From Mesorhizobium sp. CA14 (GTDB taxonomy: Bacteria > Pseudomonadota > Alphaproteobacteria > Rhizobiales > Rhizobiaceae): a DNA stretch of 64,000 nucleotides. The stretch lies in the NCBI RefSeq assembly GCF_020165195.1, contig NZ_JAIUHR010000009.1, positions 1 through 64,000 on the forward strand, written 5' to 3'. This document shows, piece by piece, positions 8,607 to 63,937 of the stretch; position 1 is the first letter of the stretch; every line of letters starts with the position of its first letter. The notes under the pieces are model-generated. The model did no database searches. It had not been told where the DNA came from and was given only the letters and a program-made list of their open reading frames with translations. The position numbers were made by a program, and so were the translations under genes.

Positions 8607-9596
8607 ATGAGGAAAACACTTTTGCTTGCCGCCGTCGCCGCCATGGCGTTGGGCGCCGGGCCGGCTTTGGCCAAGAAACAGCTCGTCATCGTCGTGAAAG
8701 GTCTCGACAATCCGTTCTTCGAGGCCATCCATCAGGGCTGCGAGAAATGGAACAAGGAAAACGCCAGCTCGGAATATGAATGCTTCTACACCGGCCCGGC
8801 ATCGACCTCGGACGAAGCCGGCGAGGCGCAGATCGTGCAGGATATGCTGAGCAAGCCCGACACGGTAGCGATGGCTATCTCGCCGTCGAACGCGCCGCTG
8901 ATCGCGCAGACGATCAAGAGTGCCAATCCGTCGATCCCGATCATGACGGTCGACGCCGACCTTGCCAAGGAAGACGCCGCCCTTCGCAAGACCTATCTCG
9001 GCACCGACAACTACCTGATGGGCAAGAAGATCGGCGAGTACATCAAGAAGGCCAAGCCGAATGGCGGCACGATCTGCACGATCGAGGGCAATCCGGCGGC
9101 CGACAACATCCTGCGCCGCGCGCAAGGCATGCGCGATGCGCTGTCGGGCAAGGAAGGCCTCTCGGCGCTGAAGGGCGAAGGCGGCTGGACTGAAGTCGCC
9201 GGCTGCCCGGTGTTCACCAATGACGACGGCGCCAAGGGCGTGCAGGCGATGACCGACATCCTCGCCGCCAACCCGAAGCTCGACGCCTTCGGCATCATGG
9301 GCGGCTGGCCGCTGTTCGGCGCCCCGCAGCCCTATCGCGACCTGTTCAAGCCGATGGCCGACAAGATCGCCAAGAACGAGTTCGTCATCGGCGCCGCCGA
9401 CACGATCGGCGACGAGGTGGCGATCGCCAAGGAAGGCCTGGTGACCGCGCTGGTCGGCCAGCGGCCGTTCGAGATGGGCTACAAGGCGCCGGCAGTGATG
9501 CTCGACCTCATCGGCGGCAAGAAGGTCGACGATCCGGTCTTCACCGGCCTCGACGAATGCACCAAGGAAACGGCCGACACCTGCATCCAGAAGTAG
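8607..9596 (+). CDS. Sugar ABC transporter substrate-binding protein
   Basis: This 329-residue periplasmic protein begins with a clear signal peptide (MRKTLLLAAVAAMALG, cleavage after ALA near residue 22) and continues as a type 1 periplasmic binding protein (VKGLDNPFFEAIHQGCEKW is the typical first strand and helix). It delivers the sugar to the permease-ATPase pair encoded divergently. The ATG at 8607 is preceded by AAGGGAGG at good spacing. A strong intrinsic terminator follows the stop. Standing alone on its strand allows the binding protein to be made in excess over the membrane parts. Confidence 0.93.
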   Translation: MRKTLLLAAVAAMALGAGPALAKKQLVIVVKGLDNPFFEAIHQGCEKWNKENASSEYECFYTGPASTSDEAGEAQIVQDMLSKPDTVAMAISPSNAPLIAQTIKSANPSIPIMTVDADLAKEDAALRKTYLGTDNYLMGKKIGEYIKKAKPNGGTICTIEGNPAADNILRRAQGMRDALSGKEGLSALKGEGGWTEVAGCPVFTNDDGAKGVQAMTDILAANPKLDAFGIMGGWPLFGAPQPYRDLFKPMADKIAKNEFVIGAADTIGDEVAIAKEGLVTALVGQRPFEMGYKAPAVMLDLIGGKKVDDPVFTGLDECTKETADTCIQK

Positions 9597-46715: not shown

Positions 46716-48374
46716 ATGGCAATCTATAAGAGCAATGGTGATCGCGTTCCCGATCACATCCTGAAAATGGCCGAACAAGCCAAATCGGGCGGCGTGGACC
46801 GCCGCGAATTCCTGGCTTTGGCCAGCGTCTTCGGCGCATCGACGGCAATGGCCTATGGCATGCTCGGCCTCGCCGCGCCGACCTCGGCCCGGGCCGAGGA
46901 CGTGCAGGGCAAGAAGGGCGGCGTGCTCAAGGTCGCAATGTCGATCAAGGATCCGAAGGATCCGCGCACCGCCGACTGGTCCGAAATCGCCAATGCCGAG
47001 CGCCAGGCGCTCGAGCCGTTGGTGAAATACACCAAGGAATACACCTTCGCGCCCTACCTCCTGGCGAGCTGGGACATCAATGACGACGCCACCGAATACA
47101 CGCTGCATGTGCGGCCGGGCGTCGAATGGAACAACGGCGACAAGTTCACCGCCGACGACGTGATCCACAATTTCACCCGCTGGGCGGATAAGGGCGCGGA
47201 AGGCAACTCGATGCCTGGCCGTCTCGGCAGCCTCGTCGACGAGAAGACCAAGAAGCTGCGCGAAGGCTCCGTCGTCAAGGTCGACGACATGACGGTCAAG
47301 CTCAAGCTGTCGAAGCCAGACATCGCCATCATCCCGAACCTTTGCGACTATCCGGCGCTGGTCGTGCACAAGACCTTCGACGAGAAGGGCGCGAACTTCA
47401 AGAACTGCCCGATCGGCACCGGTCCGTTCGAGCTCGTCTCCTACGACGTCGGCCAGAAGGTGGTCTACAAGCGTCGCACGACCGGCAAGTGGTGGCAGGG
47501 CGAGGCGTTCCTCGACGGCGTCGAGTTCATCGACTACGGCACCGATCCGGCCGCGACCGTCTCGGCCTTCGAGTCGGGCGAAGTCCAGACCAACCACGAA
47601 ACGACCGCCGACTACATCAAGATCATCGCCGACGTCGGCGCGCCGGTCTCGGAAGTCGTGACGGCGGCCACCGTGGTTTCGCGCTTCAACGTCACGCACA
47701 AGCCCTATGACAACCAGAAGGTTCGTCAGGCGATGTTGCTTGCCGTCGACAACGCCACCGTGCTGCAGCTCGGCTACGGCAATGCCGGCACGCCGGCCGA
47801 AAACCACCACGTTGCGCCCATCCATCCGGAATACGTCAAGCTGCCGGAGATCAAGCGCGACATCGCCAAGGCCAAGCAGATGCTGACGGAAGCCGGCGCG
47901 ATCGATTTCGAGCACGAGCTGATCAGCAACGACGAGGACTACCACAAGAACACCACGGACGCGATCGCGGCCCAGCTGCGCGAAGCCGGCATCAAGGTGA
48001 AGCGCACCGTGCTGCCAAGCTCGACCTTCTGGAACGACTGGACGAAGTATCCCTTCTCGGAAACCAACTGGAACATGCGCCCACTGGGCATCCAGGTGAT
48101 CGCCATCGCTTACCGCAGCGGCGAAGCGTGGAACGAGACGGCCTACGCCAATCCGGACTTCGACAAGAAGGTGAACGAGGCGCTCGGCATCGCCGATGCG
48201 GAGAAGCGCAAGGTTGTGATGAAGGATATCGAGCAGACCCTGCAGGATTCCGGCATCATCATCCAGCCTTACTGGCGCAAGCTCTACATCAATATCAAGC
48301 CCGAGGTGAAGAACCACTCGATGCACCCCACCTACGAGCACGACTTCGGCAAGGTCTGGCTCGAGCAGGCATGA
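46716..48374 (+). CDS. Peptide/nickel-type ABC transporter substrate-binding protein, Tat-exported
   Basis: This 552-residue family-5 solute-binding protein (DppA/OppA class) carries a twin-arginine signal: [17 protein letters not shown] with R29 and R30, cleavage near ARA60. The body has the family features GGVLKVAM near the mature start and the [19 protein letters not shown] segment. It feeds a permease pair and a fused ATPase encoded next. Tat export implies folding before export. GGGAG precedes the ATG. The ligand is not evident; peptides, or amines related to the next catabolic pair, are possible. Confidence 0.92.
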
Positions 48375-48388
48375 TCCATGGCGCGATG

Positions 48389-48416
48389 AATACGAGGGGC
48401 GGCGGCCCCTCGTATT
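48389..48416 (+). terminator. Hairpin between binding protein and permease genes
   Basis: AATACGAGGGGC pairs perfectly with GCCCCTCGTATT over 12 bp around a GGCG loop, 14 bp past the stop. It is followed by TGC rather than a T-run, so partial termination or message stabilisation is likely. Confidence 0.72.
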
Positions 48417-48522
48417 TGCAGCTTCGTCGCCGTTGCATATCCTGCAGCGGTGGCGGGGCGTCATCGGCTTTTCGAAACAGGGTTGAACGTATCTGACCCC
48501 AACCCGGCCGGCAGGGGGGCAC

Positions 48523-49557
48523 ATGTTCTCATTCATCGCCAGACGCATCGGCACGATACTGCTCACGATGCTGTGCCTGACGCTGGTCGTCTTCTTCCTC
48601 GTCAATCTCGAGCCCAATCTGAAGAAACTGGCGATCAGCCAGACCGAGATGCATACGCCCGCCGACCAGCTCGAAAGCTGGCTGGTCAATCATGGCTACC
48701 GGCAGAACTTCTTCCTGCGCTACGGCCAGTGGCTGGGCGTCCTGCCGAAGCATCCGATCACCGATCCGGCGACCGGCAAGACGACGCAGCGCTTCTCCTT
48801 CTGCAATGATCCGACGGAGCCGCAATTCTCCGGCGTGCTGCAGGGCGATTTCGGCTGCTCGACCAAGTTCAAGACAACGGTCGCGGCCAAGCTATTCCCC
48901 GCGCTCGGCGCCACGGGCTTGCTGATGTTCTGGGTGCTGGCGGTGATGGTGCCGATCTCGCTGCTGATCGGCATTCTCGCCGGCATGCGCGAAGGCTCGC
49001 GCACGGATCGTGTGCTGTCGGTCGCCTCGATCGCCTCGACGGCGACGCCCGAATATGTGTCGGGCGTCATCTTCACCGTCATTTTCGCATCCTGGCTCGG
49101 CTGGCTGAACGGTTCGGCGGCGTCCGCCAGCCAGGGCATCACCTTCTACAATTTCACGCTGCCGGTGATCACGCTGGCGATCTACGGCATCGGCTATATC
49201 GCGCGCATGACACGCGCCTCGATGGTCGAGGTGATGACGCAGCAATATATCCGCACCGCCCGGCTGAAGGGCCTGTCCTTCAGCAGCGTGGTCATCAAGC
49301 ATGCGTTGCGCAACGCGCTGATCGCGCCCTTCACCGTCATCATGCTGCAGTTCCCGTGGCTGCTCACCGGCGTCGTCATCGTCGAGGTGATGTTCCGCTA
49401 CCAGGGTTTCGGCTACACGCTGGTCGAGGCCGCCGGCAACAACGATATCGACCTGCTGCTCGGCTGCTCGCTGGTCTCGGTGTTCATCGTGCTGATCACG
49501 CAGCTGATTTCCGACGTCGGCTACGCGTTTCTCAATCCGCGTATCAGGGTTCAGTAG
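48523..49557 (+). CDS. ABC transporter permease, DppB type
   Basis: This 344-residue membrane protein begins IARRIGTILLTMLCLTLVVFFLV, the usual DppB/OppB first segment, and has about six transmembrane helices with the docking loop EVMTQQYIRTARLKGLSF (about 236-253). The C-terminal Q-L-hydrophobic segment completes the binding-protein-dependent permease fold. It pairs with the DppC-type protein encoded 12 bp later. A GGGGGG ribosome site precedes the ATG. An insert around 50-120 is longer than in E. coli DppB. Confidence 0.92.
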   Translation: MFSFIARRIGTILLTMLCLTLVVFFLVNLEPNLKKLAISQTEMHTPADQLESWLVNHGYRQNFFLRYGQWLGVLPKHPITDPATGKTTQRFSFCNDPTEPQFSGVLQGDFGCSTKFKTTVAAKLFPALGATGLLMFWVLAVMVPISLLIGILAGMREGSRTDRVLSVASIASTATPEYVSGVIFTVIFASWLGWLNGSAASASQGITFYNFTLPVITLAIYGIGYIARMTRASMVEVMTQQYIRTARLKGLSFSSVVIKHALRNALIAPFTVIMLQFPWLLTGVVIVEVMFRYQGFGYTLVEAAGNNDIDLLLGCSLVSVFIVLITQLISDVGYAFLNPRIRVQ

Positions 49558-49569
49558 AGGGCAGGGCCG

Positions 49570-50727
49570 ATGCAAACGGAATATATCAGCGCCTTCGACG
49601 TGGTTCTCGGCGTGCTCTGGCGGTTCTGGCCGGTGTGGGCCGCGCTCATCCTGGTGATGGGCGCCAGCTTTGCCTACAAGAAGCGGCTCGGGCTCTACGG
49701 CCAGCTCTTCGACAGCGGCGTCGGCATTGCCGGCGTCTTCATCTGCCTGTTCTGGCTGTTCACGGCGATCTTCGCCTCGACCATCTCGCCCTTCGATCCG
49801 CTGGCGCAGGTCTCGGTCATGAAGGACACGCTGCCCGGCGCGATCGAGCCGGCGTCGAAGCTCGTCTATTATTTCGGCGGCGACAAGCTCGCCCGCGATG
49901 TATTCTCGCGCATGGTCTATGGCAGCCAGATCGTGCTGATCATCGCGCCGGCCGCCACCGGCTTCGCGCTGATGGTCGGCATCACCCTCGGCCTGCCGGC
50001 CGGTTATTATGGCGGCAAGATCGATACGCTCTTATCGTTCCTTGCCAATCTGGTGCTGGCCTTCCCGGTCATCCTGTTGTTCTACCTGCTGGTGACGCCG
50101 GGCATCATGGACACGCCGATCCCCTATGGCATGGCGGGACTGTTCTTCCTGTTTCCGATCATCTTCTTCTGCGTGCTGTTTTGGACCCGCTACAAGAAAC
50201 GGCCGGACCGGCTTTATATCCTGCTCGGCATTACGCTGGTGCTGGGCGGCTGGATTTATGCGGGCCTCGTCTTCGACAAGGACCCGCTGCACATCGTGCA
50301 CATCGATCCCAACCAGCTCAACATCTTCGTGGCCGTGGTGTTCGCCTCCAGCCCCGGCGTGTTCCGCATCGTGCGCGGGCTGACCATGGATATCAAGACG
50401 CGCGACTATGTGGCGGCGGCGCAGACGCGCGGTGAATCGCCCTGGTACATCATGCTGTGGGAGATCCTGCCCAATGCGCGCGGTCCGCTGATCGTCGATG
50501 CCTGCCTGCGCATCGGCTACACGACGATCCTGCTCGGAACGCTCGGCTATTTCGGCCTGGGCCTGGCGCCGGAAAGCCCCGATTGGGGCACCGCGATCAA
50601 GGACGCCAGCCGGCTGTTGCGGTCCTTCATCCACCCGGCGCTGCCGCCCACGATCGCCCTGATGTCGTTCGTGCTGGGGCTGAACCTTTTGGCGGACTCG
50701 CTGCGCGAACAGTCGATGAAGGATTGA
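49570..50727 (+). CDS. ABC transporter permease, DppC type
   Basis: This 385-residue protein is the second permease of the peptide-class system. It has about six to eight hydrophobic segments and the EAA-type loop DIKTRDYVAAAQTRGESPWY near 275-294, as in DppC/OppC. It is longer than E. coli DppC (300), with an extra hydrophobic stretch (about 155-225) in the middle. It starts 12 bp after DppB and 52 bp before the fused ATPase gene. Confidence 0.92.
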   Translation: MQTEYISAFDVVLGVLWRFWPVWAALILVMGASFAYKKRLGLYGQLFDSGVGIAGVFICLFWLFTAIFASTISPFDPLAQVSVMKDTLPGAIEPASKLVYYFGGDKLARDVFSRMVYGSQIVLIIAPAATGFALMVGITLGLPAGYYGGKIDTLLSFLANLVLAFPVILLFYLLVTPGIMDTPIPYGMAGLFFLFPIIFFCVLFWTRYKKRPDRLYILLGITLVLGGWIYAGLVFDKDPLHIVHIDPNQLNIFVAVVFASSPGVFRIVRGLTMDIKTRDYVAAAQTRGESPWYIMLWEILPNARGPLIVDACLRIGYTTILLGTLGYFGLGLAPESPDWGTAIKDASRLLRSFIHPALPPTIALMSFVLGLNLLADSLREQSMKD

Positions 50728-50779
50728 TGGTCAGGGTTCAGGCCCTACCTGCTGAAACAATTTAGGATTGGAGCGACCC

Positions 50780-53101
50780 ATGAACGAGGCAGTTCGAAAT
50801 CCGGCTCAACCAATCATCGAGATCGAGAACCTCTCGATCTCCTTCTTCACCCGCAAGGGCGAGATCCCGGCTGTGATGGATTTTTCCTGCACGGTCATGC
50901 CCGGCGAGGCGATGGGCATCGTCGGCGAGTCCGGCTGCGGCAAGTCGACCGTTTCGCTCGGCATCATGCGCGACCTCTCCAATATCGGGAAGATCGTCGG
51001 CGGCAAGATCAAATTCCAGGGCAAGGACATGGGTGAGCTCTCCGAGGATGAGCTGCGCTCGATCCGCGGCAACAAGATCGCCATGATCTATCAGGAGCCG
51101 ATGGCGAGCCTTAACCCGGCGATGAAGATCGGCCAGCAGCTGATGGAAGTGCCGCTGATCCACGACAAGGTGTCGAAGGAAGAGGCGTACAACCGCGCGC
51201 TGGAGATGGTGCGGGCGGTGAAGCTGCCCGACCCGGAGCGCATGATGCGCTCCTATCCGCACCAGCTTTCCGGCGGTCAGCAGCAGCGCATCGTCATCGC
51301 CATGGCGCTGCTGTCGAAACCGGCGCTGCTTCTGCTCGACGAGCCGACCACCGCGCTCGACGTCACCGTCGAGGCCGGCATTGTCGAACTGGTCAAGGGT
51401 CTGGGCGAGAAGTTCGGCACCTCGATGATCTTCGTGTCGCACAATCTCGGCCTCATCCTGGAGACCTGCGACAAGATCACGGTGATGTATTCCGGCGAGG
51501 CTGTCGAGACCGGCAAGATCGAGGACGTGTTCGACCGGATGCGCCACCCTTATACGCAAGGGCTGTTCCGCTCGATCCCGCTGCCGGGCGCGGACAAGAA
51601 TTCACGGCCGCTGATCTCCATTCCTGGACAGTTGCCGCTGCCGCATGAGCGGCCGAAGGGCTGCAATTTCGGACCGCGCTGCCACCATTTCGTCGAGGGC
51701 GTCTGCAATGCGGCGGAAATCCCGATGATCCCGGTCGAGGGCCATGAGGGGCATTTCTCGCGCTGCGTGCGCTTCAACGAGATCGACTGGGAGGCGCTGC
51801 CGCCCGGCGCCAAGAAGGTCAACGAAAAGGTCGAGCCCGGCGCGCCGGTGCTGAAGATCCAGGATCTCAAGAAGTATTACAAGGTCGGCGGCAGCGAGGT
51901 GTTCGGCTCCAGCGAAGGCCGCGTCGTCAAGGCCAATGAGACGATCTCGTTCACCGCGCGCGAATCCGAGACGGTGGCGATCGTCGGCGAGTCCGGCTGC
52001 GGAAAGTCGACGCTGGCCAAGGTGCTGCTGGGCCTCGAGACTGCCAGCTCCGGCACGGTGACTTTAGCCAATAAGGAGATCCAATCTACGGGCATCGAGC
52101 GCCGCGGCGTCGATACGGTGTCGTCGATCCAGATGGTGTTCCAGAACCCGTTCGACACGCTGAACCCGAGCCACACGGTCGGCTCGCAGATCATCCGCAC
52201 GCTGGAGAAGTTCAATGTCGGCAAGAATGTCGCCGAGCGGCGCCAGCGCATGCTGGAATTGCTCGACCTGGTGAAGCTGCCGCGCGCCTTCGAGACCCGC
52301 AAGCCGCGCCAGCTGTCGGGAGGCCAGAAGCAGCGCATCGGCGTCGCGCGCGCCTTTGCCGGCGATGCCAAGGTGGTGGTGGCCGACGAGCCGGTCTCGG
52401 CGCTCGACGTCTCGGTGCAGGCGGCGGTGACGGAGCTGTTGATGGACATCCAGCGCAAGAACAAGACGACGATGCTGTTCATCAGCCACGATCTGTCGGT
52501 GGTGCGCTACATCGCCGACCGCGTCGTCGTCATGTATCTCGGCTATATCGTCGAGCAGGGCACGACCGACCAGATATTCTCGCCGCCTTACCATCCCTAT
52601 ACCGAGGCGCTGCTGTCGGCGATCCCGATCGCCGACACCAGCGTGGTCAAGAAGCATGTCGTGCTCGAAGGCGACATTCCCTCGGCGATGAACCCGCCGA
52701 CCGGCTGCCCGTTCCAGACGCGATGCGGCTACAAGAAGCTGGTGCCGGACAATCTGTGCGAGACCAAGGTGCCGCCGGTGAAGAATCTCGGCGGCGGCCA
52801 TACGAGCCTGTGCTGGCTTTCGGACGACGTGCTGGCCAGGATGGAGCCGGTCATCAGGTTCGACAAGGAACATGCCGCGCGTGAAGGCGTGCCGGACGAC
52901 GCGCCGCACGGCGAAGGGCCGGGCTTTGCGGGTGCGCCGCCGCAGCGTCCGGATGGCAAAAACGCCACTGCGGAGGCCGATGCGACCGAAGAGGTCTTGA
53001 AGGAGAACGATGCGGTGCTCAAAGCCCGTCGCCACGAAGTGCGCGATGAGGATTCGGAAACCGGTGTCTCAAGGCCGAAGGATACGACAAGGCGGCACTA
53101 A
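50780..53101 (+). CDS. Fused double ABC ATPase (DppD-DppF type)
   Basis: This 773-residue protein joins two full peptide-class ATPases. Each half has Walker A GESGCGKST (about 49-57 and 403-411), an LSGGQ signature and Walker B, and each ends with the oligopeptide C-terminal cysteine-rich region (GCNFGPRCHHF in the first, GCPFQTRCGYKK in the second) that often binds an Fe-S cluster. In most bacteria these are two genes. About 75 charged residues follow the second domain. GGAG precedes ATG 50780. Confidence 0.93.
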   Translation: MNEAVRNPAQPIIEIENLSISFFTRKGEIPAVMDFSCTVMPGEAMGIVGESGCGKSTVSLGIMRDLSNIGKIVGGKIKFQGKDMGELSEDELRSIRGNKIAMIYQEPMASLNPAMKIGQQLMEVPLIHDKVSKEEAYNRALEMVRAVKLPDPERMMRSYPHQLSGGQQQRIVIAMALLSKPALLLLDEPTTALDVTVEAGIVELVKGLGEKFGTSMIFVSHNLGLILETCDKITVMYSGEAVETGKIEDVFDRMRHPYTQGLFRSIPLPGADKNSRPLISIPGQLPLPHERPKGCNFGPRCHHFVEGVCNAAEIPMIPVEGHEGHFSRCVRFNEIDWEALPPGAKKVNEKVEPGAPVLKIQDLKKYYKVGGSEVFGSSEGRVVKANETISFTARESETVAIVGESGCGKSTLAKVLLGLETASSGTVTLANKEIQSTGIERRGVDTVSSIQMVFQNPFDTLNPSHTVGSQIIRTLEKFNVGKNVAERRQRMLELLDLVKLPRAFETRKPRQLSGGQKQRIGVARAFAGDAKVVVADEPVSALDVSVQAAVTELLMDIQRKNKTTMLFISHDLSVVRYIADRVVVMYLGYIVEQGTTDQIFSPPYHPYTEALLSAIPIADTSVVKKHVVLEGDIPSAMNPPTGCPFQTRCGYKKLVPDNLCETKVPPVKNLGGGHTSLCWLSDDVLARMEPVIRFDKEHAAREGVPDDAPHGEGPGFAGAPPQRPDGKNATAEADATEEVLKENDAVLKARRHEVRDEDSETGVSRPKDTTRRH

Positions 53102-53114
53102 CTCCAGAAGGGTA

Positions 53115-53705
53115 TTAGTTTCCGCATTGCCGTAGCTGCGCCTGGTAGTCGCGCGCCATCTGGTCGGTGGCGCGCGCGTAGCTTTGAACGCCGGCGTCGC
53201 CGCGGTTGCCGCGGCCATAGGCGGTCCAGCCGAGATAGTAGGCGAGATAGAGATTGTAGGTGTCGTTGCGGGCGACACCGAAAGTGTCGGCGGTCTTGGA
53301 GTGGTACCAGCCGACGAAATCGATGGCGTCGGCAAAGCGCGTGCGGCGCGCCGCCCAGTTGCCGGTCTCGCTTTGATATTGCGACCATGTGCCGTCGAGC
53401 GCCTGCGAGTAGCCGGTGGCGCTGGAGACATGCGTCCACGGGATGAAGCCGAGCAGCTTGGTGCGCGGCGGGCGGGCATTGCTCTTGAAGCCGGATTCCT
53501 TGCGCACCGTCGCCATCAGCACGGGAACGGGAATGCCGTATTTCTGTTCGGTCCGCTCGGCGGCGGATTGCCAGTTGTCGAACCAGCCGTCATTCTGGTC
53601 GAAGACGGCGCAGACATTGTTGATGTGGCTGGGCGCCGTCGCGCAGGCCGAAAGCGCCAGCAGCACGGAAACAGCGACAATTTTACTAAAACTCGACTTA
53701 CGCAT
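53115..53705 (-). CDS. Lytic-transglycosylase-like lipoprotein
   Basis: This 196-residue protein has a lipoprotein signal peptide with lipobox LSAC (Cys21) and an SLT-like domain: MATVRKESGFKS with E70 in the position of the catalytic glutamate, and a GYSQALDGTW segment. Lytic transglycosylases cleave the glycan strand of peptidoglycan. Some tryptophans and the SAT-GYSQ region match SLT family proteins, but other active-site residues are not certain. It converges with the ATPase gene, 13 bp apart. Confidence 0.8.
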   Translation of the reverse strand: MRKSSFSKIVAVSVLLALSACATAPSHINNVCAVFDQNDGWFDNWQSAAERTEQKYGIPVPVLMATVRKESGFKSNARPPRTKLLGFIPWTHVSSATGYSQALDGTWSQYQSETGNWAARRTRFADAIDFVGWYHSKTADTFGVARNDTYNLYLAYYLGWTAYGRGNRGDAGVQSYARATDQMARDYQAQLRQCGN

Positions 53706-53916: not shown

Positions 53917-55455
53917 ATGAGCGAACCAAGACGCAAGCGCGGCGCCGAGCGCACCAGCAACCGGGGACCAGCCGCCATCCCGCAACTGCCGGCGCGGCGG
54001 GTGGAGAATCCCTATCCGCCCATGACGCTGCTATCGGCCGACCAGATCGAGGCCATCCACCAGGCATCGATGCACATCCTGGAGAATTTCGGCATCGAGG
54101 TGATGAGCGCACGCGCCCTGTCGCTGTTCGAGCGCGCCGGCGCCAAGGTAGACCACGGCTCGATGAATGTGCGCATCGATCGCGGCATGGTCGAGGAGGC
54201 GCTGAAGTGGACGTGCAGCAACTACACGCTTACTCCGCGCAATCCCGGTCGAGCCATCCATCTTGGCGGCAGCACCATCAATTTCACGCTCGTTGCCGGC
54301 CCGCCCAATGTGCACGACATGGAACGCGGCCGCCGCGCCGGCAACCTTGCGGATTATTCGGACCTCGTGCGGCTGGCGCAGCATTTCAACTGCATCCACA
54401 TGCTGGGCAACCAGGTCTGCGCGCCGATCGAGCTGCCGGCGAACACAAGACACATGGACACCTATTTCGCCAATCTGACATTGACCGACAAATGCTTCCA
54501 TGTCTCGGCGATCGGCCGGGGCAGGGCGCTGGACGGCATCGAGATGATGGCGATCGCGCGCGGGCTGACGCTCGAGCAGATGGGAGAGGATCCCGGCGTC
54601 ACCACCATCATTTCGGTCAACTCGCCGCGCCGCTTCGACGAGATGATGGCCGAAGGCCTGATGACGATGGCCGAATACGGCCAGTCGGTGGCGGTGACGC
54701 CATTCACGCTGATGGGGGCGATGAGCCCGGTGACGCTGGCCGGCGCGCTGGCGCAGCAGAATGCCGAGGCGCTGTTCGGCATCGTGCTGACGCAGCTTGT
54801 GCGTCCGGGCGCGCCGGTGATGTATGGCGCCTTCACCTCCAATGTTGACATGAAGTCGGGCGCGCCGGCCTTCGGCACGCCGGAAAACACCAAGGCCAAC
54901 ATTGCTTCGGGACAGCTGGCGCGGCGCTACAAATTGCCGTACCGCACGACGCCGGGCTCGGCCTCCAACGCCGCCGACGCGCAGGGCGCGTATGAGACGA
55001 TGATGGCGCTGTGGGGCACGGTGCTTGGCCACGGCAATCTCGTCTATCATGCCGCCGGCTGGCAGGAGGGCGGGCTGACGGCCTCGTTCGAAAAGCTCAT
55101 CATTGATGTCGAGATGATCCAGCACATGATGGAATTCCTGCGGCCGATCGCGGTCGACGAGGCGGAGCTTGCGGTCGAGGCGCTGGGCGCGGTGCCGACC
55201 GGCGGCCATTTCTTCGGCGAGCCGCACACGCTGGAGCGCTACGCCACCGCCTTCTACCAGCCGATGCTCTCCAACTGGCAGAATTACGAGGCCTGGCAGG
55301 AGGCCGGGGGCCTCGACACGACGGCGCGCGCGACGCGGCTGTGGAAGAAGGCTCTGGAGGAATATGTCCAGCCGGCCATGGATCCCGCCGTGCGCGAGGC
55401 GCTCGAAGCCTATATGGCGCGCCGCAAGGAAGCGATCGGGCAGGGTGAGCCGTGA
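53917..55455 (+). CDS. MttB-family methyltransferase (non-pyrrolysine)
   Basis: This 512-residue protein belongs to the trimethylamine methyltransferase (MttB) superfamily. The reading frame is uninterrupted and has no in-frame amber codon, so it lacks pyrrolysine, like the MtgB, MtpB, MtcB and MtyB proteins that demethylate glycine betaine, proline betaine, carnitine or gamma-butyrobetaine. The TIM-barrel-like middle includes HVSAIGRGRALDGIEMMA and GPPNVHDMERGRRAG. Classic members pass the methyl group to a corrinoid protein; none is encoded nearby. It is followed 64 bp later by a DMGDH-like flavoprotein, suggesting stepwise N-demethylation of a quaternary amine. Confidence 0.85.
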   Translation: MSEPRRKRGAERTSNRGPAAIPQLPARRVENPYPPMTLLSADQIEAIHQASMHILENFGIEVMSARALSLFERAGAKVDHGSMNVRIDRGMVEEALKWTCSNYTLTPRNPGRAIHLGGSTINFTLVAGPPNVHDMERGRRAGNLADYSDLVRLAQHFNCIHMLGNQVCAPIELPANTRHMDTYFANLTLTDKCFHVSAIGRGRALDGIEMMAIARGLTLEQMGEDPGVTTIISVNSPRRFDEMMAEGLMTMAEYGQSVAVTPFTLMGAMSPVTLAGALAQQNAEALFGIVLTQLVRPGAPVMYGAFTSNVDMKSGAPAFGTPENTKANIASGQLARRYKLPYRTTPGSASNAADAQGAYETMMALWGTVLGHGNLVYHAAGWQEGGLTASFEKLIIDVEMIQHMMEFLRPIAVDEAELAVEALGAVPTGGHFFGEPHTLERYATAFYQPMLSNWQNYEAWQEAGGLDTTARATRLWKKALEEYVQPAMDPAVREALEAYMARRKEAIGQGEP

Positions 55456-55519
55456 GGGAACAGCTTCCCGTCCTAACTCATTTCAATCTCTCAACTCACT
55501 GAACCAACGAGAAAAATCC

Positions 55520-57946
55520 ATGAAGTCGCATGCAAAGGTCGTTGTCATCGGCGGCGGTGTCGTCGGATGCTCGGTGCTGTTCCATCTTGCCCGGCATGGC
55601 TGGACCGATGTCGTGCTTTTGGAGCGCGACGAGCTGACCTCGGGCTCGACCTGGCATGCGGCCGGCGGCATGCACACCATCAATGGCGACCCCAACGTCG
55701 CCAAGCTGCAGAAATACACGATCTCGCTTTACAAGGAGATCGAGGAACTGTCGGGGCAGGCCACCGGCGTGCATCTCACCGGCGGCGTGCTTCTGGCAGC
55801 GACCGAGGCGCGGCTCGACTGGCTGCGCGGCGTGGTTTCCAAGGGCCGCTATCTCGGCATCGATCTCGAAGTGATCTCGGCCAAGGAAGCGGCGGAATTG
55901 ATGCCGCTCATCGATCCCAGCCAGTTTGTCGGCGCCGTGCGCAATAAGGAGGACGGTCACCTCGACCCGTCCGGCGTGACGCATGCCTATGCCAAGGCGG
56001 CGCGGAAACTGGGGGCCGAGGTCGAGCGCTTCACCAAGGTCGAGGACATCGTGCGCCGTCCCGACGGGCTCTGGCGGGTCATCACCAACAAGGGCGATAT
56101 TATTGCCGAGCATGTCGTCAATGCCGGCGGGCTGTGGGCGCGCGAGGTCGGCCGCATGGTCGGGCTTGAGCTGCCGGTGCTGGCCATGGAGCACATGTAC
56201 CTGATCACCGAGGACATGCCGGAGGTCGCCGACTGGAACAAGAAGACCGGCACCGAGATCATCCACGCGGTCGATTTCGACGGCGAGCTCTATCTGCGCC
56301 AGGAGCGCGGCGGCATGCTGATGGGCACTTACGAGAAGGCCAACAAGGTCTGGTCCGAATTTTCCACCCCCTGGAATTTCGGCCATGAACTGCTGGAGCC
56401 GGACATCGACCGCATCGCGCCGTCGCTCGAAGTCGGCTTCCGCCATTTTCCGGCCTTCCAGAAAACCGGCATCAAGCAGATCATCAACGGCCCCTTCACC
56501 TTCGCCCCCGACGGCAATCCGCTGGTCGGCCCGGTGCGCGGCCTGCCGGGCTTCTGGGTCGCCTGCGGCGTCATGGCAGGCTTCAGCCAGGGCGGCGGCG
56601 TGGGGCTCGCGCTCTCCAACTGGATGATCGAGGGCGACCCGGGCGCCGATATCTGGGCGATGGACGTGGCGCGCTATGGCGACTGGGCGACGATGGCCTA
56701 CACCAACGCCAAGGTGCGCGAGAATTATTCGCGCCGTTTCTCGATCCGCTTCCCCAACGAGGAACTGCCGGCCGGGCGGCCGCTGAAGACGACGCCTCTC
56801 TATGACACGCTTGCCGCCAAAGGCGCGCAATGGGGCGTGTCATACGGCTTGGAGGTGCCGCTCTGGTATGCGCCGGATGGCGTCAAAGACGAGTTCTCAT
56901 GGCGACGCTCGACCGACTTCGACCATGTCGCCGAGGAAGTCGCGTCGGTACGCAACGGCGTCGGCCTGTCGGAGATTTCGAACTTCGCCAAATACAAGGT
57001 GACAGGCGAGGGCGCGGCCGCCTGGCTCGACCGGATACTTGCCTGCAAGCTGCCCAAGCGCGGCCGTATGACCCTGGCGCCGATGCTGAAGGAGGACGGC
57101 AAGCTGATCGGCGATTTCACTTTAGCCAACATCGACGACGCAGAGTGGTTCATCGCCGGCTCAGGTATCGCCGAGCAATATCATATGCGCTGGTTCGAGG
57201 CGCATCTGCCCAAGGAGGGCTCGGTGCGGATCGAGGCGCTGGGGCAGAAGCTCGCGGGTCTCGCAATCGCCGGGCCGAAGGCGAGGGCGGTGCTCGCCAA
57301 GGTCACTCGCGCCGACGTTTCCAGCGCGGCATTTCCCTTCATGGCAGTGGCCAGGATGGATATCGGCATGGCGCCGTGCCTCGTCGGCCGCGTCAGCTAT
57401 ACCGGCGACCTCGGCTATGAGATCTGGGTGGCGCCGGAATACCAGCGCGCCGCCTACCAGGCGCTGCTGGCTGCGGGCGAGGAATTTTCGATCGGCCTGT
57501 TCGGCTCGCGCGCGCTCAATGCGCTGAGGCTCGAGAAGAACTATGGCTCATGGGCCCGCGAGTACCGGCCGATCTATGGGCCGGTCGAGGCCGGGCTCGA
57601 TCGCTTCGTCGCCTATGGCAAGGACGCCGATTTCATCGGCAAGCAAGCGGCGCTCGCCGAGCGCAAGCAAGGCGGCAAGCTCAGGCTACGCGCCTTCGTC
57701 GTCGAGGCCGCCGATGCCGATGTGATCGGCGACGAGGCGATCTGGCATGACGGCGTCGTGCGCGGCTGGGTCACCTCCGGCGGCTTCGCGCACAATTCCA
57801 AGACATCGGTCGCCATGGGCTATGTGCCGAAGGAGATCGCCGACAGACCGGACGGTTTCGAGATCGAGATCCTGGGCAAGCGTCATGCGGCGCGCATCCA
57901 GGCGGCGCCGCTCTTCGATGCCAATTTCGAGCGGATGCGCGGCTAG
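55520..57946 (+). CDS. DMGDH/sarcosine-dehydrogenase-type flavoprotein with GcvT domain
   Basis: This 808-residue protein has an N-terminal FAD-binding DAO domain (VVVIGGGVVGCSVLFHLARH, about 7-26) with the SGSTWHAAGG segment (H46) that in relatives carries covalent FAD, and C-terminal folate-binding GcvT domains (about 430-808). Dimethylglycine and sarcosine dehydrogenases have this layout and feed one-carbon units to tetrahydrofolate. Coupled with the MttB-like gene it probably finishes demethylation of a methylated amine. The ATG at 55520 is chosen because it matches the start of the FAD domain; the ribosome site is weak (GAGA). Its stop lies in an intergenic repeat. Confidence 0.93.
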   Translation: MKSHAKVVVIGGGVVGCSVLFHLARHGWTDVVLLERDELTSGSTWHAAGGMHTINGDPNVAKLQKYTISLYKEIEELSGQATGVHLTGGVLLAATEARLDWLRGVVSKGRYLGIDLEVISAKEAAELMPLIDPSQFVGAVRNKEDGHLDPSGVTHAYAKAARKLGAEVERFTKVEDIVRRPDGLWRVITNKGDIIAEHVVNAGGLWAREVGRMVGLELPVLAMEHMYLITEDMPEVADWNKKTGTEIIHAVDFDGELYLRQERGGMLMGTYEKANKVWSEFSTPWNFGHELLEPDIDRIAPSLEVGFRHFPAFQKTGIKQIINGPFTFAPDGNPLVGPVRGLPGFWVACGVMAGFSQGGGVGLALSNWMIEGDPGADIWAMDVARYGDWATMAYTNAKVRENYSRRFSIRFPNEELPAGRPLKTTPLYDTLAAKGAQWGVSYGLEVPLWYAPDGVKDEFSWRRSTDFDHVAEEVASVRNGVGLSEISNFAKYKVTGEGAAAWLDRILACKLPKRGRMTLAPMLKEDGKLIGDFTLANIDDAEWFIAGSGIAEQYHMRWFEAHLPKEGSVRIEALGQKLAGLAIAGPKARAVLAKVTRADVSSAAFPFMAVARMDIGMAPCLVGRVSYTGDLGYEIWVAPEYQRAAYQALLAAGEEFSIGLFGSRALNALRLEKNYGSWAREYRPIYGPVEAGLDRFVAYGKDADFIGKQAALAERKQGGKLRLRAFVVEAADADVIGDEAIWHDGVVRGWVTSGGFAHNSKTSVAMGYVPKEIADRPDGFEIEILGKRHAARIQAAPLFDANFERMRG

Positions 57947-61207: not shown

Positions 61208-61256
61208 AAAATAAAACGTGCTAGCCTTCCCCAAAACGACAACAAGGGGAACTGGA

Positions 61257-62621
61257 ATGGCAACTGGTCATTTCATCGAAGGCATTGCCGGCGGCCGGCT
61301 GTCTTCGGAGCAATATGCCGACAATTTTTCTGACCTGCATCCGCCGCTTGACCACCACGAGGCGCTGGTCGAATCCGATCGCTGCTATTTCTGCTACGAC
61401 GCGCCGTGCATGAACGCGTGCCCGACATCGATCGACATCCCGCTGTTCATCCGGCAGATCGCGACGGGTAATCCCCTGGGTTCGGCCAAGACGATCTTCG
61501 ACCAGAATATCCTCGGCGGCATGTGCGCCCGCGTTTGCCCGACCGAGACGCTGTGCGAAGAGGCCTGCGTGCGCGAGGTGGCCGAGGGCAAGCCGGTGCA
61601 GATCGGCCGGCTGCAGCGCTACGCCACCGATGTCGCGATGGGCGAGGGCAAGCAGTTCTACAAGCGCGCGGAGCCGACCGGAAAGAGCATTGCCGTGGTC
61701 GGTGCCGGCCCGGCAGGGCTGGCCGCGGCGCATCGGCTTGCCCGCCACGGCCATGACGTGACCATCCTCGAGGCGCGGCCGAAGGCCGGAGGCCTCAACG
61801 AATATGGCATCGCCGCCTATAAGAGCGTCGACGATTTCGCCCAGGCCGAGGTCGACTATGTGACCGCGATCGGCGGCATCGACATTCAAAACGGCAAGGC
61901 GCTCGGCCGCGACTTCCAACTTGCCGACCTGATCCGCAACTATGATGCGGTGTTCCTCGGTCTCGGCCTTGGCGGCGTCAATGCGCTGCGCGCCGACGGC
62001 GAGAATGCAGATGGCGTCGCCAACGCCGTGGAATTCATTTCGGAACTGCGCCAGGCAAGCGACCTCTCCAGCCTGCCGGTCGGCCGGCGCGTCGTCGTCA
62101 TCGGCGGCGGCATGACGGCGATCGACGCCGCGGTACAATCGAAGTTGCTCGGCGCGGAAGAGGTGACGATCTGCTACCGCCGCGGCCAGGAGCACATGAA
62201 CGCGTCGGAGTTCGAGCAGGACCTGGCCGCTGCCAACGGCGTCACCATCCGCCATTGGCTGCAGCCCAAGCGCGTCATTGCCGAGAACGGCAAGGTGTCG
62301 GCCATCGAGCTCGAATACACCGCCATGAGCGGAGACAGGCTTATCGGCACCGGCGAAACGCTGCGGCTCAACGCCGACCAGGTCTTCAAGGCGATCGGCC
62401 AGAGCTTCGTGCCGGCGCATCTCAACGGCAGCGCGGAACAGATCGAGCTCGAAGGCGGCCGCATCAAGGTCGATGCCGAAGGCCGCACCTCGCTCTCAAA
62501 AGTCTGGGCAGGCGGCGACTGCATCTTCGGCGGCGATGATTTGACTGTCTCGGCGGTGGCGCAAGGACGCGACGCGGCCGAGAGCATCCACCGGGCACTG
62601 ACCTCTAACGGGAGGGCATGA
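61257..62621 (+). CDS. preT: NAD-dependent dihydropyrimidine dehydrogenase subunit PreT
   Basis: This 454-residue flavoprotein is the electron-input subunit of the pyrimidine-reducing dihydropyrimidine dehydrogenase. It has an N-terminal Fe-S domain with C43, C46, C51, C55 and C90, C94, C100, C104, then FAD- and NAD-binding folds (VVGAGPAGLAAAHRLARHG near 147-165, and VVVIGGGMTAIDAAVQ). With PreA it reduces uracil and thymine to dihydro forms. AAGGGGA precedes ATG 61257. Confidence 0.93.
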   Translation: MATGHFIEGIAGGRLSSEQYADNFSDLHPPLDHHEALVESDRCYFCYDAPCMNACPTSIDIPLFIRQIATGNPLGSAKTIFDQNILGGMCARVCPTETLCEEACVREVAEGKPVQIGRLQRYATDVAMGEGKQFYKRAEPTGKSIAVVGAGPAGLAAAHRLARHGHDVTILEARPKAGGLNEYGIAAYKSVDDFAQAEVDYVTAIGGIDIQNGKALGRDFQLADLIRNYDAVFLGLGLGGVNALRADGENADGVANAVEFISELRQASDLSSLPVGRRVVVIGGGMTAIDAAVQSKLLGAEEVTICYRRGQEHMNASEFEQDLAAANGVTIRHWLQPKRVIAENGKVSAIELEYTAMSGDRLIGTGETLRLNADQVFKAIGQSFVPAHLNGSAEQIELEGGRIKVDAEGRTSLSKVWAGGDCIFGGDDLTVSAVAQGRDAAESIHRALTSNGRA

Positions 62622-62623
62622 GC

Positions 62624-63937
62624 ATGGCAGACATCCGCAACACCTTCATCGGGATCAAGTCGCCCAATCCGTTCTGGCTGGCCTCGGCGCCGCCCACCGA
62701 CAAGGCCTATAATGTCGAGCGCGCCTTCAAGGCCGGCTGGGGCGGCGTGGTGTGGAAGACGCTGGGCGAGGAAGGTCCGCCGGTCGTCAACGTCAACGGT
62801 CCGCGCTATGGCGCGATCTGGGGCGCCGACCGCCGCCTGCTTGGTCTCAACAATATCGAGCTGATCACCGACCGCGACCTGCAGACCAATCTGCGCGAGA
62901 TGAAGCAGGTGAAGATGAACTGGCCGGATCGGGCGCTGATCGCCTCGATCATGGTGCCTTGCGTGGAGGAGAGCTGGAAGGCGATCCTGCCGCTGGTCGA
63001 GGAGACCGGCGCCGACGGCATCGAGCTCAATTTCGGCTGCCCGCACGGCATGAGCGAGCGCGGCATGGGCTCGGCGGTCGGCCAGGTGCCGGAATATATC
63101 GAGATGGTGGTGCGCTGGTGCAAGCAGTATACGCGCATGCCGGTCATCACCAAGCTCACGCCCAACATTACCGACATCCGCAAGCCGGCGCGCGCGGCGT
63201 ATGCCGGCGGCACCGACGCGGTGTCGCTGATCAACACGATCAACTCGATCACCGGCGTCGATCTCGACAGTTTCGCGCCGCAGCCGACCATCGACGGCAA
63301 GGGCTCGCACGGCGGCTATTGCGGCCCGGCGGTGAAGCCGATCGCCATGAATATGGTCGCCGAGATCGCGCGCGATCCGGAAACGCGCGACCTGCCGATC
63401 TCCGGCATCGGCGGCATCACCACTTGGCGCGACGCCGCCGAATTCATGGCGCTCGGCGCCGGCAATGTGCAGGTCTGCACGGCGGCGATGACCTACGGCT
63501 TCAAGATCGTGCAGGAGATGATCGCCGGGCTGGAGAACTGGATGGACGAGAAGGGCCACGCCTCGCTCTCCGACATCATCGGCCGCGCGACGCCCAATGT
63601 CACCGACTGGCAGTATCTCAACCTCAACTATGTCGCCAAGGCGCATATCGACCAGGACGCCTGTATCAAATGCGGCCGCTGCCACATTGCCTGCGAGGAC
63701 ACCTCGCACCAGGCGATCACCAGCATGGTCGATGGTGTGAGGCATTTCGAGGTGATCGAGGCTGAATGCGTCGGCTGCAATCTCTGCGTCAATGTCTGCC
63801 CGGTGGAGGGCTGCATCACCATGCAGCCACTGGCCGCCGGCGTGCTCGACCAGCGCACCGGTTTGCCGGTGTCGCCGGTCTACGCCAATTGGACCACGCA
63901 CCCCAACAATCCGATGGCCAAGGTCGCTGCGGAGTAG
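62624..63937 (+). CDS. preA: NAD-dependent dihydropyrimidine dehydrogenase subunit PreA
   Basis: This 437-residue catalytic subunit has a dihydroorotate-dehydrogenase-type barrel with FMN-site sequences and the active-site region NFGCPHGMSERGMG. The C-terminal ferredoxin domain holds two [4Fe-4S] clusters (ACIKCGRCHIAC and ECVGCNLCVNVCP). ATG 62624 is preferred over ATG 62618, which overlaps the preT stop, because GGAGG stands at better spacing. It works with PreT in the first step of reductive pyrimidine breakdown. Confidence 0.93.
   Translation: MADIRNTFIGIKSPNPFWLASAPPTDKAYNVERAFKAGWGGVVWKTLGEEGPPVVNVNGPRYGAIWGADRRLLGLNNIELITDRDLQTNLREMKQVKMNWPDRALIASIMVPCVEESWKAILPLVEETGADGIELNFGCPHGMSERGMGSAVGQVPEYIEMVVRWCKQYTRMPVITKLTPNITDIRKPARAAYAGGTDAVSLINTINSITGVDLDSFAPQPTIDGKGSHGGYCGPAVKPIAMNMVAEIARDPETRDLPISGIGGITTWRDAAEFMALGAGNVQVCTAAMTYGFKIVQEMIAGLENWMDEKGHASLSDIIGRATPNVTDWQYLNLNYVAKAHIDQDACIKCGRCHIACEDTSHQAITSMVDGVRHFEVIEAECVGCNLCVNVCPVEGCITMQPLAAGVLDQRTGLPVSPVYANWTTHPNNPMAKVAAE

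Follow-up and report, generated by a model that had tools for sequence, protein, structure and literature searches.

How does a methyltransferase of the MttB superfamily pass on its methyl group when no corrinoid protein is encoded nearby? This question is raised by a 64,000-nucleotide stretch of Mesorhizobium sp. CA14 DNA (contig NZ_JAIUHR010000009.1, positions 1 to 64,000; hereafter the window), in which an mttB gene stands beside a gene for a GcvT-type flavoprotein. A preliminary description of the window had proposed that the methyl carrier lies elsewhere in the genome or, alternatively, that the methyl group is handed over in a new way, possibly toward tetrahydrofolate, as part of a distinct quaternary-amine pathway in an aerobe. 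In this work we compared the pair with the rest of the CA14 genome and with other genomes. The comparisons suggest, with a probability that we put at about 0.8, that the pair is a substrate-specific module depending on one genome-wide corrinoid hub with a shared MtgC carrier.

The mttB–Flavoprotein Gene Pair

The pair consists of two open reading frames (ORFs), both of them real and located as follows:

53917–55455, plus strand: MttB-superfamily methyltransferase without a pyrrolysine codon, proposed quaternary amine:MtgC methyltransferase (PF06253 and TIGR02369 scores)
55520–57946, plus strand: dimethylglycine dehydrogenase (DMGDH)-like flavin adenine dinucleotide/GcvT flavoprotein, proposed folate-linked demethylase of the MttB product (domains and DMGDH chains)

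The first gene encodes a protein of 512 amino acids that belongs to the MttB superfamily by its full-length match to PF06253 (MTTB; profile positions 1–500 of 500, 668 bits at a cut-off of 25). Among solved chains its nearest relatives are 4yyc, 2qne and 9yce, the last of which is named glycine betaine methyltransferase. It is not a pyrrolysine-containing trimethylamine methyltransferase: its TIGR02369 (trimeth_pyl) score of 306 bits lies under the curated cut-off of 525, no in-frame stop or TAG was found inside the gene (53917–55455), and an alanine occupies the column aligned with pyrrolysine.

The second gene has the domain order DAO, FAO_M, GCV_T, GCV_T_C, which is that of the dimethylglycine dehydrogenase family, and its product matches the DMGDH chains 5l46 and 4p9s along the full length in phmmer searches (E about 1e-174; 3.4e-174 for 5l46). 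Unlike these, it is bacterial and encoded beside mttB. Read from the sequence, its frame probably begins at the ATG in position 55520 (MKSHAK...), which leaves a gap of 64 bp behind the mttB stop codon; our first flavoprotein searches used a start at 55493 and thus nine extra upstream residues. The pairing of an MttB-family methyltransferase with a GcvT flavoprotein at 53917–57946, as first described, was confirmed by these domain matches.

The pair is widely conserved in the genus, which was represented by 61 genomes, CA14 included. MttB was found at E <= 1e-180 in 56 of them (best copy 81–97% identical, CA14 aside), and 54 of these 56 carry a flavoprotein ortholog downstream on the same strand after a gap of 60–261 bp; in G276 and G297 no such ortholog was found there at E <= 1e-300. 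Pairing at this frequency argues that the association is more than chance. At the E-values used, four small genomes (G267, G273, G302 and G311) lack both members of the window-type pair, MttB as well as flavoprotein, and in G303 a flavoprotein gene clipped by the contig start stands without MttB.

A Corrinoid Hub Elsewhere in the CA14 Genome

No B12-binding (PF02310) or RACo (PF14574) match was found in the window, so the reported absence of a corrinoid protein and a reactivase stands for the window itself. It does not stand for the genome. Profile searches covering the whole CA14 genome (6.07 Mb, 67 contigs) revealed on contig C1 a hub of about 18 kb comprising a carrier, DUF1638, MtgD, a MetF-like protein, a RACo/RamA-type reactivase, MtgE and an mttB gene:

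C1:134468–135496: MtgE (S-methyl_trans domain)
C1:140631–142127 (extent of the match), minus strand: hub-type mttB (PF06253)
C1:142459–143154: MtgC carrier (PF02310 and PF02607)
C1:143382–144071: DUF1638 protein (domain match)
C1:147060–148795: DUF5981 protein and MetF-like protein (DUF5981 and MTHFR among the hub domains)
C1:148938–149912: MtgD (Pterin_bind among the hub domains)
C1:150324–152393: RACo/RamA-type reactivase (PF14574 match at C1:151470–152276)

The MtgC of CA14 is nearest to the NCBIfam MtgC models, yet scores under their cut-offs (206 versus 370). MtgC, MtgD and a RamA/RACo-type reactivase, which together mark an MtgBCD-type demethylase, thus occur in one genome and on one contig. 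Since MtgC and RACo are encoded on C1 of the same genome, the missing carrier is an effect of the window. The first of the two proposals, a carrier located elsewhere, is therefore borne out by the genome search for an MtgC-type corrinoid protein and a RamA-type reactivase that had been recommended at the outset. A cognate carrier and reactivase, co-regulated with the gene and required for its activity, had been named as what would speak against a new pathway; the genomic half of this has now been found.

The seven PF06253 matches in CA14 correspond to six genes, one of them split in two frames. One mttB gene adjoins the hub on C1, and the other five, the window's included, lie away from it. 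The protein of another of the genome's mttB genes shares 97–98% identity with its counterparts in four Mesorhizobium records. The split copy (C19:19120–20618; L020) extends over two frames and its adjoining flavoprotein gene is also in pieces, probably through decay or a sequencing error.

RACo has a single match in CA14 and PF02310 has seven, six of them above the cut-off. Apart from MtgC, the latter are one methylmalonyl-CoA mutase and four ORFs carrying a CxxxCxxC motif (radical S-adenosylmethionine proteins by eye); the seventh, C10:21824 (21.5 bits), is below the cut-off and its content was not read. When MtgC was used as the query at E 1e-25, it was itself the sole match in CA14. In most other matched genomes the same query also found long ORFs (about 900–1500 amino acids, 32–40% identity), which we take to be MetH; no MetH was seen in CA14 by this search. 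From these matches, CA14 appears to have no methyl carrier-type corrinoid protein other than MtgC.

Comparison With Known Systems

An aerobic corrinoid hub with several MttB paralogs is already in print. Parts of the study of Mausz et al. (2025, PNAS; PMC12478193) report, from mutants and proteomics, that Ruegeria pomeroyi requires both MtgC and MtgD to use glycine betaine and to synthesise methionine; they also list RamA and DUF1638 as modules predicted to act in reactivation, describe MtgBCDE as co-localised in S. meliloti, and mention often up to seven PF06253 ORFs that may serve other methylated compounds by the same route. As this pathway was known, a corrinoid-dependent quaternary-amine pathway in an aerobe cannot be called new.

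As far as the R. pomeroyi system is described in those parts, CA14 resembles it in two respects: (i) a PF06253 protein, MtgC, MtgD, a RamA-type reactivase, DUF1638, MetF and MtgE are combined in one aerobic alphaproteobacterial genome; (ii) several PF06253 paralogs are present. The same source places genes for later demethylation often near mtgBCD in Ruegeria and its relatives, which we count as a likeness to the window pair. The difference is that the window MttB stands outside the hub-linked clade of its own genome and far from the hub.

The sharing of one carrier also has a precedent in Eubacterium limosum, where, according to sections of PMC12155760, MtpB, MtcB and MtyB act on one corrinoid protein, MtqC, with MtqA shared too, and 42 MttB-superfamily members are attributed to the genome. 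The action of several pyrrolysine-free MttB-superfamily proteins on one corrinoid protein would be common to both organisms. In contrast to CA14, however, E. limosum is an anaerobic acetogen, and those sections describe no flavoprotein step. A literature search found nothing on a window-type MttB with a flavoprotein in Mesorhizobium among open-access papers, most subscription papers being outside its reach.

Co-occurrence of MttB, MtgC and RACo in Alphaproteobacteria

The distribution of MttB, RACo, MtgC and the flavoprotein was studied in 212 genomes of Alphaproteobacteria, CA14 included. At most six MttB candidates were scored per genome, from a match list of limited length, and gene numbers per genome are therefore lower bounds. 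MttB was detected in 45 genomes, of which 44 contained any RACo, 42 a RACo of at least 270 bits and 41 an MtgC of at least 350 bits. By comparison, neither RACo nor MtgC reached these scores in any of the 167 genomes without MttB. RACo was also present in all 61 genomes of the genus, including the four (G267, G273, G302 and G311) without the window-type pair.

Five genomes without an MttB match (G066, G107, G156, G189 and G192) have a weaker RACo (206–230 bits) together with an MtgC-like protein (42–49% identity); these possibly represent a different corrinoid methyl system. Within the 45 genomes, G006, G062 and G209 gave partial MttB matches only and are outside the tree described below; in G006 and G062 only partial pieces of MttB and RACo were found.

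Phylogeny of the MttB Proteins

A tree was built from 136 MttB sequences of 42 of the MttB genomes with their gene surroundings; some of the listed MttB places are outside it, and the 194-amino-acid L020 fragment was left out. The sequences fall into a window clade (62 sequences; Shimodaira–Hasegawa-like approximate likelihood ratio test, SH-aLRT, 98), a hub-linked clade (69 sequences; SH-aLRT 93) and a distant third group (five sequences). With support values of 98 and 93, the window MttB lies outside the clade of the hub-linked C1:140631 MttB.

RACo was found in each of the 32 genomes that have a window-clade MttB, and MtgC in 31 of them. G045 is the single one of the 32 with no hub-clade MttB in the tree: its sole MttB match is of the window clade, while another contig encodes MtgC and RACo. 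Window-clade MttB genes within 3.1 kb of MtgC were revealed in four genomes: G149 (locus L045), G128 (L068), G069 (L051) and G167 (L055). At L045 a single 11.6-kb contig contains a DMGDH-like gene (opposite strand, converging), a window-clade MttB, DUF1638, MtgC, MtgE and RACo. The MttB gene is on the same strand as those for MtgC and DUF1638, with 4-bp overlaps of MttB with DUF1638 and of DUF1638 with MtgC (longest-ORF starts). At L068 the genes for MttB, MtgC, DUF1638, MtgD and RACo stand in a row.

The window MttB retains 66 of the 80 columns in which at least 95% of the hub-clade sequences have one letter, and the four window-clade proteins encoded near MtgC retain 60–70. In no column are the two clades each fixed, at 95%, for a different letter. 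In view of both results, nothing in the alignment suggests that the window MttB has lost corrinoid docking. Comparison at the active site of Methanosarcina MttB (Gly110, Tyr364 and Pyl334, as listed in part of PMC9842639) was not decisive: at the Tyr column, 17 of 62 window-clade sequences have Tyr, and 51 of 69 hub-clade sequences have Leu.

The third group is characterized by Asp at the pyrrolysine-aligned column (5/5 sequences in the tree). A protein of this distant kind is encoded on contig C11 of CA14 (L021:8027–9616). An Rfam scan of 116 kb of the CA14 genome gave a single match, to PYLIS_3 (51 bits), inside this gene at 9107–9206, and none at the window pair; despite the match, the C11 gene contains no TAG.

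Genome G209, which is labelled 99% complete, would fit a transfer without a carrier: an MttB gene (contig C129; L176) stands beside a DMGDH-like gene, no RACo was found, and the MtgC match is only of MetH-like level. This MttB is clipped by the contig end, however, and by its alignment with the third group it looks like one of the third kind and not of the window clade. Third-kind MttB was accompanied by RACo in all 50 genomes tested, which come from the best 80 of at least 580 loci and include many of Mesorhizobium and its close kin, where RACo may be present for other MttBs. On contig C32 (L027), G209 also encodes a protein homologous to the flavoprotein of the window (67%), with no recognised MttB adjoining it.

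The Flavoprotein Partner and the Proposed Pathway

A DMGDH-like gene (at least 300 bits) was found within 1.3 kb of 19 of the 62 window-clade, 13 of the 69 hub-clade and two of the five third-group MttB genes; in 10, three and one cases, respectively, it lies downstream on the same strand at no more than 150 bp. In CA14 itself, the second window-clade mttB, on C1, is followed by a 64% homolog of the flavoprotein, with 641 bp between the open frames. Inspection by eye of G209, G036 and G023, which have 60–67% flavoprotein homologs and no window-clade MttB, revealed no replacement demethylase adjoining the flavoprotein gene.

Two loci of one six-sequence window subclade contain sarcosine oxidase genes, soxA and soxB at L096 and soxA and soxG at L105, although all these matches are under the curated cut-offs and some are clipped by the locus end. 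GbdR-like regulators were found at L080 (398 bits) and L072 (383 bits), below the cut-off of 480, and on C1 a similar one lies at a distance of about 5 kb to RACo (L018:1353–2354, 369 bits). The sarcosine oxidase genes and the regulators fit a stepwise demethylation of a betaine-type amine, without thereby naming the substrate.

A dependence on the shared hub draws on these direct observations: the genes with their homologies, a hub encoded by CA14 itself, the conserved adjacency of the pair, the co-occurrence across genomes and the rare union of window-clade MttB with MtgC. The use of the C1 MtgC by the window MttB, the reactions and their order are most likely as follows. The window MttB would take a methyl group from a betaine-type quaternary amine and place it on the Co(I) corrinoid carried by the shared MtgC, from which MtgD would move it to tetrahydrofolate. 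MetF-type proteins would oxidise the tetrahydrofolate-bound methyl group to methylene-tetrahydrofolate, while RACo, with DUF1638, would rescue oxidised cobalt. The DMGDH-like flavoprotein would oxidatively remove the next methyl group from the tertiary amine product, again onto tetrahydrofolate. The folate link suggested earlier is plausible, through MtgD and the flavoprotein; what found hardly any support is its corrinoid-free version.

Several facts weigh against dependence of the pair on the hub. The C1 hub is not near the window pair, and in G265 and G287, where pair and RACo share a contig, RACo is about 0.3 Mb off. Hub genes were found within 5 kb of just four of the 62 window-clade MttBs, compared with the 19 that have a DMGDH-like gene within 1.3 kb. 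Hub-clade MttB is also present in 31 of the 32 window-clade genomes and might be the MttB for which the hub is retained, and because the Ruegeria hub serves methionine synthesis too, the presence of a hub does not by itself prove its use by the window MttB. G147 (93% complete, 120 contigs) contains window-clade MttBs, RACo and MtgD and no MtgC match at 350 bits. Finally, the Fisher p of 3e-41 for the co-occurrence cannot be taken literally, because the genomes are related.

Alternative Explanations

The pair might be a non-catabolic or degenerate module, for example with an MttB that has lost methyl transfer or merely binds an osmolyte. The probably decayed mttB copy on C19 could be read in this way, as could Mesorhizobium alhagi, for which part of PMC4302635 reports an mttB gene that is salt-induced (log2 3.77) and whose deletion left salt tolerance unchanged. 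The 81–97% identity of the open frames, the partner kept in 54/56 genomes of the genus and the 66/80 retained hub-clade columns nevertheless make this explanation improbable.

That the window MttB has a further corrinoid protein or reactivase of its own elsewhere in the genome, and is served by it instead of by the shared MtgC, is slightly harder still to accept. Corrinoid proteins of methanogens can be methyltransferase-specific, as stated in part of PMC9842639, and a few genomes of the class, G104 and G179 among them, have two high-scoring MtgC copies. CA14, however, has a single RACo and, at an E-value no worse than 1e-25, a single MtgC-like protein, and its other B12-binding matches over the cut-off are the mutase and the radical S-adenosylmethionine-like ORFs, the sub-cut-off C10:21824 being the unread one.

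A corrinoid-free hand-over, one form of the new route raised in the preliminary description, in which MttB would pass the methyl group straight to tetrahydrofolate or to the GcvT domain of the flavoprotein, perhaps channelled in an MttB–flavoprotein complex, and the hub would serve only other MttBs and methionine synthesis, has little in its favour beyond the lack of a carrier gene beside the pair and the case of G209, and is very improbable given RACo in 32/32 and MtgC in 31/32 window-clade genomes and the four window-clade MttBs near MtgC: phylogenetic profiling lends it no support, since high-scoring MtgC and RACo follow MttB, in the window-clade genomes too.

Neighbouring Genes in the Window

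Upstream of the pair the window contains genes of an ATP-binding cassette (ABC) transporter type and one further ORF:

46716–48374, plus strand: ABC substrate-binding protein of the dipeptide/nickel type, which may, as a conjecture only, take part in importing the substrate (NCBIfam matches and a paralog)
48523–50727, plus strand: two ABC permease-like ORFs (48523–49557 and 49570–50727; named by eye), part of the same possible importer
50768–53101, plus strand: fused ABC ATPase-like ORF, part of the same possible importer (by eye; homologs near mttB genes)
53115–53705, minus strand: lipoprotein-like ORF of 196 amino acids (by eye) from the ORF list, separating the ABC genes from mttB and unlikely to be related

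The best NCBIfam matches of the substrate-binding protein are DppA, Opp4A and NikA, all below the cut-off, and the 196-amino-acid ORF gave no NCBIfam match. The ABC genes (46716–53101) stop 815 bp before mttB, with one reverse-strand gene in between. Close homologs of the ATPase are encoded near other mttB genes, for instance on contig C43 of G091 (1073 bits) and contig C26 of G045 (772 bits). On contig C23 of CA14 (L019:8443–11707) a paralog of the substrate-binding protein gene (728 bits) stands 20 bp downstream of a hub-clade mttB. Related ABC parts were found near eight of the 136 MttB sequences in the tree, CA14's two included. There is thus a hint, and only a hint, that these genes may import the substrate of the pair.

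At the other end of the window, two adjacent ORFs (61218–63937) resemble by eye both subunits of bacterial dihydropyrimidine dehydrogenase (PreT/PreA).

Biological Significance

Because the carrier and the methyltransferase are mostly unlinked in Alphaproteobacteria, an argument from a missing carrier that is based on a 64-kb window is unsafe for MttB. In this genus of soil rhizobia, as the results indicate, a single corrinoid hub is probably shared by several demethylases of the MttB type. Such sharing would extend aerobic B12-dependent osmolyte use to a further substrate module, and this module, with its substrate identified, would be a useful marker of quaternary-amine use around roots.

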